The notes beneath the pieces are model-generated. The model did no database searches, was not told the origin of the DNA, and saw only the letters and a list, made by a program, of their open reading frames with translations. A DNA stretch of 64,000 nt from Flavobacterium sp. TR2. GTDB lineage: Bacteria > Bacteroidota > Bacteroidia > Flavobacteriales > Flavobacteriaceae. The position numbers and the translations under genes are program-made. Below are positions 4,240 through 54,207 of this stretch, one piece after another (the first letter of the stretch is position 1; each line of letters begins with the position of its first letter). The stretch spans positions 4,898,001-4,962,000 of the forward strand of contig NZ_CP104307.1 of NCBI RefSeq assembly GCF_025252405.1. Direction: 5' to 3'.

Positions 4240-4258
4240 CAATTGAATATAAATTTTG

Positions 4259-4345
4259 ACCATATAAGCAATATAAGTTCATTTTAGTTTGAGTGCGATC
4301 TCAAAATACGCTCCAATTTATAATTTCTTATATCACTTATATGGT
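4259..4345. repeat. Intergenic palindrome, accatataag family, copy 2
   Basis: The arms ACCATATAAGCAATATAAGT (4259-4278) and TCTTATATCACTTATATGGT (4326-4345) are nearly complementary around a 47 nt loop. The copy lies inside the sulfur operon, directly before a second repeat of another family. Confidence 0.85.
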
Positions 4346-4372
4346 AAAAAAAATAAAAAAGTCTAATTTTTT

Positions 4373-4449
4373 AAGGAACAGAGCAACAAAGGTGCAAAGC
4401 GACAAAGTTTTTCCCTTTGAACCTCTGCCCCTTTGAACCTTTGAACCTA
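4373..4449. repeat. Intergenic palindrome, tttgaacct family, copy 1
   Basis: The left arm contains ACAAAGGTGCAAAGCGACAAAG (in part) and the right arm contains CTTTGAACCTCTGCCCC followed by CTTTGAACCTTTGAACC. It folds back around a loop of about 10 nt and ends 7 nt before the ATG at 4456. Other copies are at 35812-35908, 43228-43731 (split by a gene) and 54113-54207. Confidence 0.8.
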
Positions 4450-12010: not shown

Positions 12011-12018
12011 TATCTTTG
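12011..12018 (+). promoter_or_regulatory. -7 box of the trp operon promoter
   Basis: TATCTTTG matches TAnnTTTG and ends 18 nt before the leader peptide ATG at 12037. Transcription from here would cover the leader, the attenuator and the trp genes. Confidence 0.75.
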
Positions 12019-12036
12019 TCACATCAAAATAAAGAA

Positions 12037-12093
12037 ATGAGAACAATTTTAAACAATACTTGGTGGTGGAGCAATTTACGTCAGACGTCGTGA
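12037..12093 (+). CDS. trpL: trp operon leader peptide
   Basis: An 18-codon open frame encodes MRTILNNTWWWSNLRQTS and stops at TGA 12091-12093. Codons 9-11 (12061-12069) are three consecutive Trp codons, which are very rare by chance. It lies between a TATCTTTG promoter box and a strong terminator hairpin in front of trpE. This is the normal layout of ribosome-mediated attenuation: ribosomes stall at the Trp codons when charged tRNA-Trp is scarce. No other role is expected for the peptide. Confidence 0.92.
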   Translation: MRTILNNTWWWSNLRQTS

Positions 12094-12166
12094 ACGAAGC
12101 TTCCTATGGTATTGTAAAAAATATAAAAATATAAAGGGCTTGTCATCACGACAAGCCCTTTTTTTT
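12087..12166 (+). promoter_or_regulatory. trp attenuator: terminator hairpin and competing antiterminator
   Basis: The terminator stem pairs AAAGGGCTTGTC (12133-12144) with GACAAGCCCTTT (12150-12161), loop ATCAC, followed by T to 12166. The competing pairing joins GTCGTGA (12087-12093) with TCACGAC (12146-12152), and AAGC (12097-12100) with GCTT (12138-12141), with a small internal loop. The first of these strands covers the leader stop codon. A ribosome at the stop codon would mask it and let the terminator form. One stalled at 12061-12069 would leave it free and prevent termination. The pairing is seen in sequence; the mechanism is inferred by analogy with known trp attenuators. Confidence 0.88.
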
Positions 12167-35575: not shown

Positions 35576-35906
35576 GATTTCTATTTTTTTAAGGTTCTGA
35601 AATTCTAAGTTTTTTTGTTGATGATTAAAACTTTTTTTTAGCCTCTAAGTTTTTAAGAAATCTAAGATTCAAAGCTTTTTAAACTTAGCCTCTCAGAACC
35701 TTAACCACTTATCGACTTTTTAATTTACACTTCAAAAGTATGCTGGTTTTTAGTCTTTTAAAATTAAATGATACTGAGTTGTTGATTTTGGTTACTGAAT
35801 TGTTTTTTTTTTAAGGTGCAAAGGTTCAGAGGTTCAAAGGCACAAAGATTTCTTTGCCGATTTAAAAAACTTTGCCCCTTTGAGCCTTTGCCACTTTGTT
35901 CCTTTG
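35576..35906. other. 331-nt gap with two different palindromes
   Basis: The first element (35589-35704) has perfect 12-nt end arms, TTAAGGTTCTGA and TCAGAACCTTAA, and inner CTAAGTTTTTAAG-like pieces. About 100 T-rich bases follow without recognisable signals. The second element (35812-35908) belongs to the tttgaacct family. No gene was seen. Confidence 0.7.
35589..35704. repeat. Intergenic palindrome, cagaacctta family
   Basis: TTAAGGTTCTGA (35589-35600) and TCAGAACCTTAA (35693-35704) are perfect inverted arms. Inside, AGCCTCTAAGTTTTTAAG and AAACTTAGCCTCTCAG hold further short complementary pieces. The same word AGAACCTTA occurs twice near 26630-26655. Confidence 0.75.
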
Positions 35907-42678: not shown

Positions 42679-43221
42679 ATGGTTTATAAATTTAGAGTTA
42701 TTCTAGACGCCGAAGAAGATATTTTTAGAGACATTGCAATTCTTGAGGAAGATACTCTTGAGGATTTGCACAATGCAATCTTCAACGCTTTTGGCTTTGA
42801 CGGATCAGAAGTGGCTTCATTTTATACTTGCGATGATACATGGAATCAAGAAGATGAAATTCCGCTTTTTGATACAGGAGATGTTCCTGGCGAAATGAGA
42901 ACCATGAACGATTATCCGTTATCTAGTATTTTAGACAAAGAAAATACAAAGATTATCTACGTTTATGATTTCATTAGTATGTGGACGTTCTTAGTAGAAT
43001 TGGCCGCTATCGAAGATGAAACCGTTGGAGCAACATACCCAGAAACTTTATTTTCTCACGGTGAAATGCCAGACGAAGCTCATGAAAAAAACTTTGAAGC
43101 TGATGATATGCACGACGATATCTACGGAGAATTTGAAGACGACCTAGACGAAGACGATCTTGATATGTTCGAAGGAGATGATAGCTTCGAAGATTATGGA
43201 TTTGAGGAAAATTGGAATTAG
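42679..43221 (+). CDS. Plasmid pRiA4b ORF-3-like / IS1096 TnpR-like domain protein
   Basis: Acidic soluble protein of 180 aa. The N-terminal domain VYKFRVILDAEEDIFRDIAI then EEDTLEDLHNAIFNAFGFD (about 2-43) is the start of the pRiA4b ORF-3 domain, also found as a passenger of IS1096. HLIYVYDF-type strand KIIYVYDFISMWTFLVEL (about 93-110) follows. The C-terminal 50 residues are very rich in Asp and Glu (for example DDLDEDDLDMFEGDD). The name does not mean that it is mobile here: no transposase or inverted ends are near. The function is unknown. Confidence 0.82.
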   Translation: MVYKFRVILDAEEDIFRDIAILEEDTLEDLHNAIFNAFGFDGSEVASFYTCDDTWNQEDEIPLFDTGDVPGEMRTMNDYPLSSILDKENTKIIYVYDFISMWTFLVELAAIEDETVGATYPETLFSHGEMPDEAHEKNFEADDMHDDIYGEFEDDLDEDDLDMFEGDDSFEDYGFEENWN

Positions 43222-43227
43222 TTCTTA

Positions 43228-43263
43228 AGGTTCAAAGAGGCATAGGTACAAAGGTTCAGAGGT
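43228..43263. repeat. tttgaacct family, left arm before the four-helix-bundle gene
   Basis: The arm reads AGGTTCAAAGAGGCATAGGT then ACAAAGGTTCAGAGGT. Compared as reverse complement with the arm at 43696-43731, 26 of 35 positions match. The pair thus brackets the gene at 43337-43696. Confidence 0.75.
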
Positions 43264-43336
43264 CTTTTTTAAAATCTTGCGATTTTAAAATGTAATATTT
43301 TTCTTTATTTTTATGTTTTAATTCTTAAAATATAAA

Positions 43337-43696
43337 ATGAAAACTTTTCGCGACCTTTTAATCTGGCAAAAATCTATGAATCTGGTAACTAAAATTTACC
43401 AATTAACAAATTCATTTCCAAAAGAAGAAATTTATGGACTATCTTCACAAATCAGAAGATATTCAATATCAATACCTAGCAATATTGCGGAAGGATATGG
43501 TAGAGATGGAAATAGTGATTATTTGAGATTTTTAAATATTTCCATTTCATCTCTATTCGAAATGCAGACTCAGCTAGAAATTTCATTCAATCTAAAATAT
43601 ATAACCGAGTACCAATTCAGTAAAATAAATGGAGAAAGCAGAGAATTAGAACAAATGTTAAGTTCTTTTATTCGAAGAATAAAAGACAGAAAATAA
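43337..43696 (+). CDS. Four-helix bundle protein (23S rRNA intervening-sequence type)
   Basis: Helical protein of 119 aa. The family start is seen in FRDLLIWQKSMNLVTKIY (about 4-21), followed by FPKEEIYGLSSQIRRYSISIPSNIAEGYGR (in pieces, about 28-57), where SQIRR-x-x-x-S-I-x-x-NIAEG is diagnostic. The founding members are encoded within insertions in Leptospira 23S rRNA genes; the free-standing forms have no settled function. Here the gene is bounded by two opposed arms of the tttgaacct repeat, with the stop codon at 43694-43696 touching the right arm. This suggests that it is cargo of that palindrome. Confidence 0.9.
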   Translation: MKTFRDLLIWQKSMNLVTKIYQLTNSFPKEEIYGLSSQIRRYSISIPSNIAEGYGRDGNSDYLRFLNISISSLFEMQTQLEISFNLKYITEYQFSKINGESRELEQMLSSFIRRIKDRK

Positions 43697-43731
43697 CCTT
43701 TGTCCCTTTGAACCTCTGCACCTCTAAACCT
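43696..43731. repeat. tttgaacct family, right arm after the four-helix-bundle gene
   Basis: The arm reads AACCTTTGTCCCTTTGAACC then TCTGCACCTCTAAACC. It starts at the four-helix-bundle stop codon and ends 8 nt before the ATG of the nucleoid-associated protein gene. Confidence 0.75.
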
Positions 43732-43739
43732 AAAAATAA

Positions 43740-44798
43740 ATGATAAATTTATTCAACACCCACATCGAGACGCTGTCAATACACCGCGTAGGGAACAAAA
43801 GCAGAAACGAAGCGATTTTTTTATCAGAGCAGCCATTTAATTTAAATGATGAAATTGTTCCTTTGATTAAAGAGTTCTTTTTCAAGCCTTTTAGAGAAAA
43901 AGAAGAAAACTATTATCAGTTTGCACACGAAGTGGACTTGGACTACAACGATATGTTTAAATATGCAACTGAGATTTTTGCTAATCCATCAAATGTGCAT
44001 GAAGTTTCTAAAAACATTACAAAACATTTGTTTGAGCAGTCAAATCATCCGCACATTAAAAATGGAGAGGTTTATGTAACGTATTTGACAAACTTAAGCA
44101 TCGATAATAACGTAGTTGATGCAATCGGAATCTTTAAAAGTGAGCTTCAAGCAGACTTTTTACAGTTTGAAGAAAACGGAAGCAATCTTGAAATGATTTT
44201 ACAGCAAGGCATCAACTTGAGTAAATTAGATAAAGGATGTTTGATTTTCAATTATAAAAAAGAAGAAGGTTATAAAATCCTGACCGTAGATAGCAACCGT
44301 TACGACGCGCGCTACTGGTTAGAGCACTTTTTGTCTGTTGACGCTTTTGAAGATGAAAACTTCATCACTAAAAAATATTTAAAATTCTGTCAAAACTTCG
44401 CAAAAGACGTGGTTTTGCCAGCAGAAGACAAGAAAGAGGAAGTAATGTTTATGAACCGATCTGTGAATTATTTCGCTAAAAATGATCAGTTTGAAGAGCA
44501 GAATTTCTTGAATGAAGTACTAGACAATCCTGATTTGATCCCTGAATTTAAAAACTATAAAGTTGATAAAGGAGAAAAATACAGCATCGAAGATGTAACC
44601 TCATTCCCTATTGCCAACGCAGCAGTTTCTGACGCCAGAAAATCGATTAAAAACGTAATTAATCTGGATACTCACATCCAGATTAAAATGGATTTCATTA
44701 ATCCTGAAAGTGCAGAAAAATTCGTTGAAAAAGGCTGGGATGAAGAAAAACAAATGTATTACTACTTAGTTTACTTCAACAAAGAAGAAAAAAACTAA
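43740..44798 (+). CDS. Nucleoid-associated protein (NdpA/YejK family)
   Basis: Protein of 352 aa matching the 37-kDa nucleoid-associated protein family, whose E. coli member YejK is found on the chromosome. Family features are the start VHRVGN-like SIHRVGNKSRNEAIFLSEQ, a middle block NVHEVSKNITKHLFEQSNHP (about 87-106), GEVYVTYLTNLSIDNNVVDAIGIFK (in pieces) and DSNRYDARYWLEHFL (about 184-198). The biochemical role is not clear; binding to topoisomerase or cell-cycle proteins has been proposed for relatives. The start follows the repeat arm by 8 nt, and no -7 box is evident after the cargo gene. Confidence 0.88.
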   Translation: MINLFNTHIETLSIHRVGNKSRNEAIFLSEQPFNLNDEIVPLIKEFFFKPFREKEENYYQFAHEVDLDYNDMFKYATEIFANPSNVHEVSKNITKHLFEQSNHPHIKNGEVYVTYLTNLSIDNNVVDAIGIFKSELQADFLQFEENGSNLEMILQQGINLSKLDKGCLIFNYKKEEGYKILTVDSNRYDARYWLEHFLSVDAFEDENFITKKYLKFCQNFAKDVVLPAEDKKEEVMFMNRSVNYFAKNDQFEEQNFLNEVLDNPDLIPEFKNYKVDKGEKYSIEDVTSFPIANAAVSDARKSIKNVINLDTHIQIKMDFINPESAEKFVEKGWDEEKQMYYYLVYFNKEEKN

Positions 44799-50380: not shown

Positions 50381-53300
50381 ATGAAATTGTTTTTGGATAA
50401 TCATTTTATTGCTAAGATTAAAAAATACGCATTAGCAATAATGGCACTATTCATTGTTTATTCCTGTGCAACACGCAAGCCCCAATATGGAAAAAATGTT
50501 AGTGCTAACGAAACAGAAAACGCTACCGATACTATAAAAATTGCACATACTTTTTTCTTGGTTGGTGATGCTGGAAATGCCGACGAAGAGCAAGCACAGC
50601 AGACGTTAGAACTTTTACATCAAAAACTTAAGAAAGCAAGCAAAAAATCGACACTTCTGTTCTTGGGCGATAATATTTATCCAAAAGGCTTTCCTAACGA
50701 CAAACACCCTGAAGATAAGGCTTTGGCCGAGACCAAACTAACCAATCAGTTAAAATTGACAAAAGGTTTTAAAGGAAAAACTATTGTAATTCCCGGAAAT
50801 CATGATTGGTACAGCGGCATCAAAGGTCTAGAGCGTCAAGCCGATTTTGTAACTAAATATTTAAATGATAAAAAAGCATTTCTTCCAAGAAAAAGCTGCC
50901 CTATCGAAAACGTTAAAATCGACAGCACCACTACTTTGATAGCTATTGACAGTGAATGGTTTCTGGAAGACTGGAACGATCATCCCACTATAAACGACAA
51001 TTGCGAAATTAAAACCAGAGAAGCTTTTTTTGAAGAATTGGAGGGGCTTTTGAACAAAAACCAAGAAAAAACGGTTGTTTTGGCAATTCATCATCCATTA
51101 TTGAGCAACGGAACACATGGCGGACAATTTTCGTTAGAAAAGCAATTGTTTCCTTTAGAACAAAAGATTCCTTTGCCAATAATTGGCTCATTCATTAATT
51201 TATTGCGAAAAACATCTGGTGTAAGTCCGCAGGATATTCAGAACAAACAATACACGATTTATGCTAAGAGAATTAAAACGCTTTTGCAAAAACAGAAAAA
51301 TGTCATTGTAGTTTCTGGACACGACCACAACCTGCAATACATCAGCAAAGAAAACATCCAGCAGATTATCAGCGGCGCAGGATCAAAATCTGAAGCTGCT
51401 AGAGCTATCAGCCCATACGATTTTTCATATGGCGGAAATGGTTATGCAACTTTAACCATGTTTAACAGCGGTGATGCAAAAGTTTGTTTTTATGGAAATG
51501 AAAACGGTAAAGAAAAACTGCTTTTTGAACGAGAAATCATAAAAGCAAAAGAAATCAACTGGGCTGCAGATATTCCGAATACCTTTCCAGCAAAAGTGAC
51601 CACTTCGATTTATTCTCCAAAAATGACTCAAAAAAGTGCTTTTCACAGATTTTTATTCGGCCAACATTACAGAAAATATTACAGTATGCCTATTGAGGCG
51701 ACAACTGCTACGGTTGACACTCTAAAAGGCGGTCTGAAACCCATTCGCGAAGGCGGAGGACATCAATCTGTTTCTTTGAGAATGTCTGATCCTCAAGGCC
51801 GTGAATATGTAATGCGCGCCATGAAGAAAAGCGCGACTGTATTTTTGCAGTCAGTTGCTTTTAAAGACCAATATGTAGTAAATGAATTCGAAAAGACATA
51901 CGCCGAGGATTTCTTATTTGATTTCTACACTACTTCTCATCCTTATTCTTCTTTCGCCATTGGCAGTATGTCCGATCAAATTGGTCTTAGACACACCAAC
52001 CCTATTTTATACTACATTCCAAAACAAAATGGTTTAGGCGAATTTAACGCGAGTTTTGGAGATCAATTGTATATGGTTGAAGAAAGGCCTGCTGACAATC
52101 ATCTTGATGGGAAAAATTTTGGAAAACCAAACAACATTATCGGAACTGATGATATGATGCTGAATCTTCATAAGGACGAAAAATATGTGGTCGATGAAAA
52201 AGAATATATAAAAGCGCGTTTGTTTGACATACTTTTAGGAGATTGGGACAGACATAGCGATCAATGGCGTTGGGCTGAATATAAAGAAGATGGCAAAGTG
52301 ATTTACAAACCGATTCCGCGTGACCGTGATCAAGCGTTTGTAAAATATGATGGCGCTTTACTTTCGCTTTTAATGAATATGCCTCCCCTTCGTCATATGC
52401 GATCTTTTAAAGGTGACAGAATAAATGTGAAATGGCTTGGAAGAGAGCCTTACCCAATGGATTTGGCATTTTTAAAAACAGCCCAAGAAAAAGATTGGGT
52501 GGAGCAGGCCAAATATATTCAGGAAAATTTGACTGATGCAGATATTGACGAAGCTTTCAAAAACTTGCCAAAAGAAGTCCAAGACGAAACGATTGACGAA
52601 ATCAAGGCAAAACTAAAAAGCAGAAAAAAAGATCTTCAGAAATATGCTCGCGAGTATTCTGATGTCTTAAGCAGAACAATTATGATCGCAGGAACAGACA
52701 AAAAAGACAAGTTTGTTTTGAATCATAATGTAAAGAAAGGAATTGAAATTCAGGTTTTCAGAATCAAAAAGGAAGGAGACGAATTGCTTTACACCAAAAA
52801 CGTAACCGATGATAAAACCAAAAATCTTTGGATTTACGGTTTAGACGACAATGATGTTTTTGAAGTAAAAGGAAACGAAAAATCCAGCATTAAAATTCGT
52901 TTGATTGGAGGCCAGAACAACGATACTTATAACATTGAAAACGGAAGAAAGGTTATTGTTTACGATTTCAAATCAAAAGAGAACACGTACAACCTAGATT
53001 CGAAAACGCAAACGCAGCTAACAGATGATTATGATGTTAATGCCTATAATTACGAAAAACCAAAATACAATGTGGTTTCAGGTCTGCCAAACATTGGATA
53101 CAATCCAGATGATGGTGTGAAAATGGGGGTTAATGTAAATTATACTGTCAATAATTTTAAACAAAATCCATACACGCAAAGACATATTTTTAATGCTTTC
53201 TACTATTTTGCTACAGGCGGTTTAGAGTTTAATTATGCGGCGCATTTTCCAGGGTTATTAGGCAAATGGGTTATTGACGTGGAATCATTATATACGACTC

Positions 53301-54112
53301 CAAATTTTGCCATGAACTATTTTGGATATGGAAATGAGTCAAAATATGATGACGATTTAGGAATGGATTATAATCGTGTGCGTATTAGAAAATTTAATGC
53401 TTCGGGCGCCATTCGACACGTAGGACGATACGGAAGCGAATTTAGCATTCAGCCAATTTTCCAGCGAATGACGGTTGAAGATACCGAAAATAGATACATA
53501 AACATTCCTGGAATTGTAAATCCTGAGGTATTTGACAGTCAGAATTTTGGAAGCTTAAAAGTTAAGTATGTATTTAAAAATTCAGATTTTGCTGCCAAAC
53601 CTACTTTAGGAATGGCGTTTATGCTTGCAGCGACTTGGACAACCAATTTGGATAATACAAAGAAAAATTTCCCAACATTGGAGAGTTTCTTAGGATTTAC
53701 CCATAAAATTGATCACAACGGAAAATTGATATTGGCCACTTACGTGAAAGGAAAAGCTATTTTCAACAATAATTATGAGTTTTATCAAGGTGCTTCTCTA
53801 GGTGGCGATACCGATTTGCGCGGTTTCAGAAACGAACGTTTCCTAGGAAGTTCATACTTCTCTCAAAGCTCTGATCTGCGTTTAAGCATCGGGAAAATCC
53901 GTAAAACGATTGTTCCTTTTACTTATGGAATTTTAGGAGGTTTTGACTACGGAAGGGTTTGGCTTGATGGCGAAAATTCTAAAAAATGGCATCAAGATTA
54001 CGGCGGAGGACTCTGGCTGAATGCGATAAACGTTATTACAGCAAGAATCTCTTATTTCAAATCTCCTGATGAAGTTGGAAGATTGATTTTTGGAGCGGCA
54101 TATAGCTTTTAG
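50381..54112 (+). CDS. Lipoprotein with metallophosphoesterase domain and C-terminal outer-membrane beta barrel
   Basis: Very large protein of 1243 aa. The signal peptide ends in a lipobox (FIVYSCATRK, C29). The metallophosphoesterase domain (about 55-370) has all five blocks: FFLVGDAGNADE, LLFLGDNIYPKG, VIPGNHDWYSG, LAIHHPLLS and VVSGHDHNLQY. A middle region (about 430-850) includes LLGDWDRHSDQWRWAEY and PIPRDRDQAF, which look like a kinase-type catalytic loop. The C-terminal part (about 890-1243) is a beta barrel ending with GGDTDLRGFRNERFLG, the LRGF mark of the BamA/D15 surface-antigen superfamily. The substrate is unknown. It is probably anchored in the outer membrane. Confidence 0.87.
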   Translation: MKLFLDNHFIAKIKKYALAIMALFIVYSCATRKPQYGKNVSANETENATDTIKIAHTFFLVGDAGNADEEQAQQTLELLHQKLKKASKKSTLLFLGDNIYPKGFPNDKHPEDKALAETKLTNQLKLTKGFKGKTIVIPGNHDWYSGIKGLERQADFVTKYLNDKKAFLPRKSCPIENVKIDSTTTLIAIDSEWFLEDWNDHPTINDNCEIKTREAFFEELEGLLNKNQEKTVVLAIHHPLLSNGTHGGQFSLEKQLFPLEQKIPLPIIGSFINLLRKTSGVSPQDIQNKQYTIYAKRIKTLLQKQKNVIVVSGHDHNLQYISKENIQQIISGAGSKSEAARAISPYDFSYGGNGYATLTMFNSGDAKVCFYGNENGKEKLLFEREIIKAKEINWAADIPNTFPAKVTTSIYSPKMTQKSAFHRFLFGQHYRKYYSMPIEATTATVDTLKGGLKPIREGGGHQSVSLRMSDPQGREYVMRAMKKSATVFLQSVAFKDQYVVNEFEKTYAEDFLFDFYTTSHPYSSFAIGSMSDQIGLRHTNPILYYIPKQNGLGEFNASFGDQLYMVEERPADNHLDGKNFGKPNNIIGTDDMMLNLHKDEKYVVDEKEYIKARLFDILLGDWDRHSDQWRWAEYKEDGKVIYKPIPRDRDQAFVKYDGALLSLLMNMPPLRHMRSFKGDRINVKWLGREPYPMDLAFLKTAQEKDWVEQAKYIQENLTDADIDEAFKNLPKEVQDETIDEIKAKLKSRKKDLQKYAREYSDVLSRTIMIAGTDKKDKFVLNHNVKKGIEIQVFRIKKEGDELLYTKNVTDDKTKNLWIYGLDDNDVFEVKGNEKSSIKIRLIGGQNNDTYNIENGRKVIVYDFKSKENTYNLDSKTQTQLTDDYDVNAYNYEKPKYNVVSGLPNIGYNPDDGVKMGVNVNYTVNNFKQNPYTQRHIFNAFYYFATGGLEFNYAAHFPGLLGKWVIDVESLYTTPNFAMNYFGYGNESKYDDDLGMDYNRVRIRKFNASGAIRHVGRYGSEFSIQPIFQRMTVEDTENRYINIPGIVNPEVFDSQNFGSLKVKYVFKNSDFAAKPTLGMAFMLAATWTTNLDNTKKNFPTLESFLGFTHKIDHNGKLILATYVKGKAIFNNNYEFYQGASLGGDTDLRGFRNERFLGSSYFSQSSDLRLSIGKIRKTIVPFTYGILGGFDYGRVWLDGENSKKWHQDYGGGLWLNAINVITARISYFKSPDEVGRLIFGAAYSF

Positions 54113-54207
54113 TTAGGTACAAAGGGCACATAGCGACAAAGGTTCAAAGGTTTTTAGTTCTATCTTAAAAAATCTTTGATCCTTTGTTCCTTTGCAACTT
54201 TGAGACT
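54113..54207. repeat. Intergenic palindrome, tttgaacct family, copy 4
   Basis: The left arm AGGTACAAAGGGCACATAGC then GACAAAGGTTCAAAGG opposes the right arm CTTTGATCCTTTGTTCC then TTTGCAACTTTGAGACT over a loop of about 30 nt. It separates two converging genes. Confidence 0.8.

Follow-up and report, generated by a model that had tools for sequence, protein, structure and literature searches.

Open reading frames of the S23p type are known from 23S rRNA intervening sequences (IVSs), where they lie in inserts with terminal inverted repeats, for instance in Leptospira and Coxiella. In Coxiella, the ORF of the IVS is preceded by tandem heptamers, the number of which varies by strain (PMC4990558). 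These inserts have been proposed to be remnants of transposition (Burgin 1990, as cited in PMC4990558), and their ORF to be a component of mobility (Ralph and McClelland 1993, as cited in PMC4990558). Insertions in the 16S and 23S rRNA of CPR bacteria are also reported to contain the protein family, IVP (PMC11270868), and a figure legend in a paper on CRISPR-linked systems includes the 23S rRNA IVP in its list of domain abbreviations (PMC10910872). A second system of reference are the RAYT genes and their REP palindromes: the RAYT ORF always lies between two inverted palindromes, protein and palindrome co-evolve, and the abundance of the cognate palindrome is tied to the resident gene (PMC2817692).

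Here, we describe an IVP gene between two inverted repeat arrays in Flavobacterium sp. TR2, located in a window of 64,000 nt (the whole stretch of DNA analysed). To our knowledge, no function has been assigned to IVP/S23 genes so far. We consider it probable that the gene and its two arms form one small mobile element that is found across bacteria and consists of an Avd-like IVP gene between inverted 7-/8-nt arrays, with a role of the protein that we infer. The locus is composed of the following features:

42679..43221, plus strand: upstream neighbour, pRiA4 ORF-3-like (PF07929), an anchor in the comparison of relatives
43228..43263, plus strand: left arm, about four 8-nt units, mostly RAGnnnCW, starting 6 nt past the stop codon (43219-43221) of the pRiA4-ORF3-like gene
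43337..43696, plus strand: IVP gene, 119 aa, PF05635 23S_rRNA_IVP / TIGR02436 four helix bundle protein
43696..43731, plus strand: right arm, the left-arm unit inverted, ending 8 nt before the ATG of NA37
43740..44798, plus strand: downstream neighbour, 37-kDa nucleoid-associated protein NA37 (PF04245), an anchor in the comparison of relatives

The left arm reads, unit by unit, AGGTTCAA AGAGGCAT AGGTACAA AGGTTCAG AGGT; within the 8-nt unit, RAG and a C are mostly fixed and three letters are free. With a gap of 432 nt between them, the two arms agree at 27 of 36 positions in one register, while each of five neighbouring registers gives 15 of 36 or fewer. This bears out an initial annotation of this DNA that had noticed arms complementary at 26 of 35 positions (43228-43263 and 43696-43731). 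Their alignment score of 40 (L037) was reached by none of 200 dinucleotide shuffles (mean 19.3, sd 3.7). The arms are therefore real beyond shuffles, although not as the simple palindromes of that annotation: they are inversely oriented tandem arrays of 8-nt units. The complete four-helix-bundle gene that it described in the loop, with the stop codon touching the right arm, is present; the final A of its TAA is shared with the start of the right arm.

In a profile search, the IVP protein matched PF05635 with 132.3 bits (E 1e-38, curated cut-off 33.8) and TIGR02436 with 128.8 bits (curated cut-off 24). The structure model is all-helical with a pLDDT of 95, and the closest solved structures are 2GSC and 2RLD (TMq 0.88 to 2GSC_B), with DGR Avd next. 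A protein of 87 % identity is encoded in F. saccharophilum (L355), upstream of the same downstream gene, NA37. An Rfam search returned no family at the element and no rRNA in the 64-kb window. Elsewhere in the window, a Bacteroidete tryptophan peptide leader RNA (RF01692, 71.8 bits) is located at 12017-12144.

With the 23S rRNA IVSs, the window element shares the protein family and the position of the ORF between terminal inverted repeats. Unlike them, it lies between protein genes and outside 23S rRNA, and so do the other elements presented here as far as examined, apart from one on a plasmid of Azospirillum (L107), which has heptamer arms and sits within an apparent 23S rRNA (recognised from its sequence, without a tool). 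A further difference is that the present arms are gene-specific arrays of 7-8-nt units with dispersed gene-less copies. Like a RAYT gene, the window gene is placed between two inverted palindromes; however, the IVP protein is a four-helix bundle without known catalysis and not an HUH tyrosine transposase, and its arms are arrays of 7-8-nt units. For DGR Avd, the structure model predicts the same fold, matching 4DWL and chains of the DGR RNP with TMq 0.76-0.79, whereas the window protein remains below the curated bAvd and DGR Avd cut-offs (26.6 bits for a cut-off of 40, and 29.2 for one of 80) and the two genes flanking it (PF07929, PF04245) are not reverse transcriptases.

The genome of the window strain encodes six IVP genes, and all of them are situated between inverted arrays (6/6 above threshold). 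For this analysis, the arm score is that of the best match between one flank and the inverse of the other, and the threshold of 32 is exceeded by 5 % of 116 control ORFs (95th percentile). The units of the six genes all differ (by eye about aagtctaa, aaggttca, gaagcaag, aagtcgaa, ttaattgt and aattatga), and arms with TTTGAACCT were found on none of the other five. The initial annotation had taken the gene for cargo of a single palindrome family; since the five other IVP genes each have a unit of their own, the window gene appears to belong to the element itself instead.

In the wider comparison, 239 of 252 IVP genes had enough flanking sequence for scoring. Arms above the threshold were present in 66 of 77 genes of an all-bacteria sample (one genome per species, many phyla, the best 80 of 585 loci; 11 misses), in 65 of 70 Flavobacterium genes (5 misses), in 38 of 57 genes at the level of the phylum (19 misses), in 9 of 16 further genes from the NA37 site (7 misses) and in all 13 distinct plasmid genes, for which 14 of 46 matching records had been fetched. 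The difference between the flanks of IVP genes and those of the control ORFs is highly significant (Mann-Whitney p 8e-42). The plasmid genes, from cyanobacteria, Azospirillum, Gemmatirosa and Riemerella, lie between inverted arrays of mostly 7-nt units. Of 198 genomes sampled from the phylum of the window, 157 contain IVP/S23 genes; the phage records searched gave no IVP match. Arms on nearly every IVP gene speak against a model, in our view an unlikely one, in which the short-repeat palindromes would be mobile and the IVP genes passengers captured in their loops.

Repeat period and mismatches were counted in the 203 of 239 elements with a score of at least 32. Across bacteria, 54 of 69 elements (drawn from the best 80 of 585 loci) have 7 as their best period, as do 11 of the 13 on plasmids. 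In Flavobacterium, the best period is 8 for 36 of 65 elements, a set to which orthologues of the window gene contribute strongly. Period 7 versus 8 was rejected as a clade trait: on a poorly resolved tree with 70 of 118 elements, the eight period-8 elements need at least six changes. The register test could be applied to 84 of the 203 elements and showed that the order of units agrees between the arms in register, with the own score exceeding the unit-permuted one in 77 of 84 (p 5e-14). Unit consensi were obtained for 88 of the 203; those of the left arm contain AG in 64 of 88 and CT in 14 of 88. Together with the low C content of the left arms (6-12 %), this preference gives the arms a polarity with respect to the gene.

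The polarity is left unexplained by a purely mutational account, in which slippage and template switching would homogenise inverted arrays of no function around a gene that is a resident regulator. In its favour, both arms change together between species at one site. It leaves equally unexplained the linkage of unit and protein and the two-copy case described below, and we regard it as the least likely of the readings considered.

Matching in register is also in line with an account at the level of RNA, which we judge to be distinctly improbable: the arms of the transcript would pair, RNase III would excise the insert or split the host mRNA, and the pairing would be under selection. Further points that agree with it are the fold of the window element, which is better than that of shuffles (z -5.05), the orientation of 79 of the 96 elements with an ORF on both sides, which is that of both neighbouring genes, and the excision of the Coxiella IVS by RNase III in vitro (PMC4990558). 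The arms, however, tolerate many mismatches. Those compatible with G:U pairing in the sense RNA numbered 353 vs 438, a slight deviation in the opposite direction (p 0.003), and the missing excess speaks against selection for an RNA stem. The G:U asymmetry thus led us to reject such selection, and the constraint at the RNA level suggested by the initial annotation finds no support. Pairing of the transcript would nevertheless be compatible with a mobile element, as a means to soften the insertion.

To relate proteins and arms, 118 site clusters, one per genomic site, were used to represent the 203 elements. Pairs of elements at different sites with less than 50 % protein identity show a background arm similarity of about 15. 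The value increases to 21.9 for identities of 60-70 % and averages 41 from 70 % upwards, where six of seven pairs score at least 36; one of these seven close pairs (L074/L227) occupies neighbouring stretches of one region. Over all 118 clusters, a Mantel test was weak: 47 of 500 permutations reached its value, and the GC-partialled correlation was -0.03. The link between protein and arm is thus visible at close range only and weakens as distance grows. At the NA37 site, RAGnnnCW arms accompany 41 of 41 type-1 and none of 7 type-2 proteins, and TTTAAA arms 7 of 7 type-2 and 3 of 41 type-1 proteins. The types were first assigned by eye, and the best protein match agrees in 48 of 48 cases; the protein of a 49th gene (L170) fits neither type. 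By eye, a similar RAGnnnCA unit recurs among type-1 relatives whose sites are unrelated to that of the window: two come from other genomes of this phylum (L133, L260), and two from a KSB1 and a Syntrophaceae metagenome bin (L350 and L343) that could hold stray contigs; in L343, the right flank with the same unit looks direct and not inverted. That close protein relatives elsewhere keep the same arm unit is the second point against captured passengers.

The NA37 site was compared in 120 sequences. An IVP gene lies between the pRiA4-like and the NA37 gene in 49 of them, at least six of these encoding a fragment, and 67 are without IVP gene, including one with an apparent decayed copy (L158). Two sequences, ending at a contig end (L149) or containing an N gap (L150), could not be judged, and two represent second NA37 copies elsewhere (L224, L225). 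The arm test skipped L149, L170, L224, L225 and six spacers shorter than 35 nt (including L150). A gene standing here without arms in most relatives, the case which the initial annotation had set against its own reading, was not observed: 46 of 48 testable gene-bearing sites have matched arms (p<=0.05). Among the testable gene-less sites, 34 of 62 have a palindrome (p<=0.05), usually of different sequence, and this frequency of gene-less palindromes is what the passenger model has in its favour. In three of the sequences (L141, L142, L146), the spacer at this site holds another inverted repeat, around CTCTCCAAAGGAGAGGG.

On the tree of the neighbouring host gene, the state of the site (no gene, type 1 or type 2) changes at least 20 times. 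For dN/dS, 41 of the 49 genes were entered and 179 pairs passed the identity filters, resulting in a median of 0.116 for the IVP gene vs 0.043 for the neighbour gene. The IVP protein is under purifying selection. Recurrent changes of state together with selection point to the NA37 site as an old address, repeatedly gained, lost and swapped, and not as a recent insertion; judged from these sequences, the gene in the window appears to be old and recurrent rather than freshly inserted.

Copies of the window unit also occur without a gene. Three gene-less palindromes are found in the window itself:

4373..4448, no strand assigned: gene-less palindrome with the 8-nt unit of the window
35813..35898 (right end approximate), no strand assigned: gene-less palindrome with the 8-nt unit of the window
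54115..54206 (right end approximate), no strand assigned: gene-less palindrome with the 8-nt unit of the window, just past the stop of ORF 50381-54112

All three, which the initial annotation had placed near 4373, 35812 and 54113, are real. TTTGAACCT occurs seven times in the window vs 1.25 times expected, and AGGTTCAAAGG 61 times in the genome vs twice for its backwards control. From 221 genomic sites of TTTGAACCT, 30 were fetched: eight of them, at five places, lie outside long ORFs in arrays of three or four units, one further site has two units, and sites within long ORFs contain at most one. All 30 are more than 20 kb away from any IVP gene.

At least ten copies of AGGTTCAAAGG and AGGTTCTAAGG, counted together, are present in 26 of 41 genomes with a type-1 gene, in none of 7 with a type-2 gene and in none of 67 without IVP gene at the NA37 site. 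A link of dispersed copies to the gene, as described for RAYT/REP, is strong in the raw counts (p 2e-12) but not significant once ancestry is controlled, since ten independent pairs comprise one to three concordant, no discordant and seven to nine tied ones. The abundance of gene-less copies with a matching gene is confounded by ancestry. In the 26 genomes with at least ten copies, the dispersed variant (AGGTTCAAAGG or AGGTTCTAAGG) tracks the variant of the arms weakly (Spearman 0.35, p 0.08), with a majority of A among the dispersed copies in 9 of 10 CA-arm genomes and of T in 7 of 16 CT-arm genomes. A stronger relation (p 0.006), seen in 13 genomes with arms chosen by eye, was not upheld on all 26. 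The weakness of this link on the full set makes a mobile element of gene and arms slightly less probable.

The spacers orthologous to that of the 4373 palindrome were inspected in 15 relatives and contain a palindrome of the CAAAG kind in four, of the CTAAG kind in four and of other sequence in seven. Directly before this palindrome, the window has another palindromic stretch at 4240-4360 (accatataagcaatataag...cttatatggt), a version of which stands alone in three relatives (L396, L403, L407). At the orthologous sites of the 54113 palindrome, a second palindrome is nested in the loop in 11 of 15 cases (by eye), which shows that loops take inserts and is thus a further point for genes as passengers. 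Examples are L425, L428, L434 and L436, with a nested palindrome (gccacgaattcacgaat...) in the loop of the octamer arms.

Evidence for movement comes from the genome of one relative (G151), which has two copies of a 455-bp unit (L274 and L279) with 80 % identity and unrelated genes alongside. The homology extends over 1420-1874 and 1420-1871, beginning at the outer ends of the arms and ending within about four bases of them; the arms of L279 score 28 and are below the threshold of 32. In a congener (L365), the genes flanking the L274 copy are adjacent, separated by a short spacer that lacks the element and is too diverged for mapping of the junctions. No target-site duplication was seen. Likewise, an element of the window genome (L004) and one of another species (L239) have gene and arms in common and differ in their neighbours. 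Movement of gene and arms as one unit is well supported. A candidate pair of occupied and empty NA37 sites (L150/L156, 97.8 % alike) was rejected, as L150 contains a run of N from an assembly gap.

The initial annotation had viewed the palindrome as a mobile or RNA-level element able to carry a small gene as cargo. Of this reading, the existence of an element beyond chance and the kinship with 23S rRNA intervening sequences stand, and a mobile unit is the best interpretation, whereas cargo is disfavoured and an RNA-level constraint is not supported. The best reading is a transposon-like unit of about 0.43-0.6 kb with RAYT/REP-like organisation, combining an Avd-like protein with inverted short-repeat arrays. 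The IVP protein, for which crystals of solved relatives contain five chains, would bind the unit in DNA or RNA and, together with host enzymes, might copy or move the palindrome into spacers between genes. Gene-less arrays would relate to such elements as REPs do to RAYTs, being their non-autonomous derivatives. At the window site, the gene has long been in place under selection, and within the genus it has been acquired, lost or exchanged again and again. We know of no nuclease or recombinase motif in the IVP family, and the most economical reading is that the protein may serve as a specificity or mobility factor.

Orphan heptamer repeats are known as GGGAATC in Xanthomonas, TAACTGA in Beggiatoaceae and cyanobacteria, and STRR in cyanobacteria. 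Similar units are found in the arms of IVP genes: two TAACTGA units (with up to two mismatches) occur in 5 of 118 clusters and GGGAATC in 4 of 118, counts made without a shuffled control, and the arms of a Dyella element (L293) consist of GGGAATA/GGGAATC. We hypothesise a common origin of IVP arms and orphan heptamers. A word search of two papers on these repeats (PMC4692102, PMC4679880) returned no mention of S23 or four-helix genes, and a statement of the general rule that IVP genes lie between repeat arrays was not found in the open literature, subscription papers being mostly outside our coverage.

A broader proposal, which we put forward tentatively and hold to be somewhat less probable than its opposite, is that IVP/S23 proteins are the mobility proteins of bacteria-wide miniature transposable elements without a known recombinase. 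An Avd-like pentamer would recognise the 7-8-nt array at each end, many orphan heptamer repeats (STRR, GGGAATC, TAACTGA) and the Flavobacterium octamers would be gene-less derivatives, and the 23S rRNA IVSs would be copies that landed in rRNA genes. If arms and gene form one element, the widespread IVP/S23 genes would be given a role, the 23S rRNA IVSs would join a bacteria-wide family of operon-spacer insertions, an origin would be offered for several families of orphan heptamers, and each IVP protein would be predicted to recognise the unit of its own arms. The suggestion made in 1993 of a mobility function for the ORF (cited in PMC4990558) would become directly testable, and an IVP protein that proves to drive movement would be categorically new.

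Such insertions could also account for the connection to CRISPR. Three of the plasmid IVP genes (L099, L110, L106) split genes that are usually adjacent, twice as cas6-IVP-cas4 and once as cas10-IVP-cmr3, and insertion into cas operons could explain the association, so that published CRISPR links may be hitchhiking. A further plasmid gene lies antisense between two ribonucleotide reductase genes. An IVP gene was also found in an archaeal (Methanophagales) metagenome bin, where it could belong to a stray contig (L356). Finally, two plasmids of one Calothrix brevissima strain (L097 and L098) carry the same IVP element next to the same neighbours, which means that a larger segment is duplicated.
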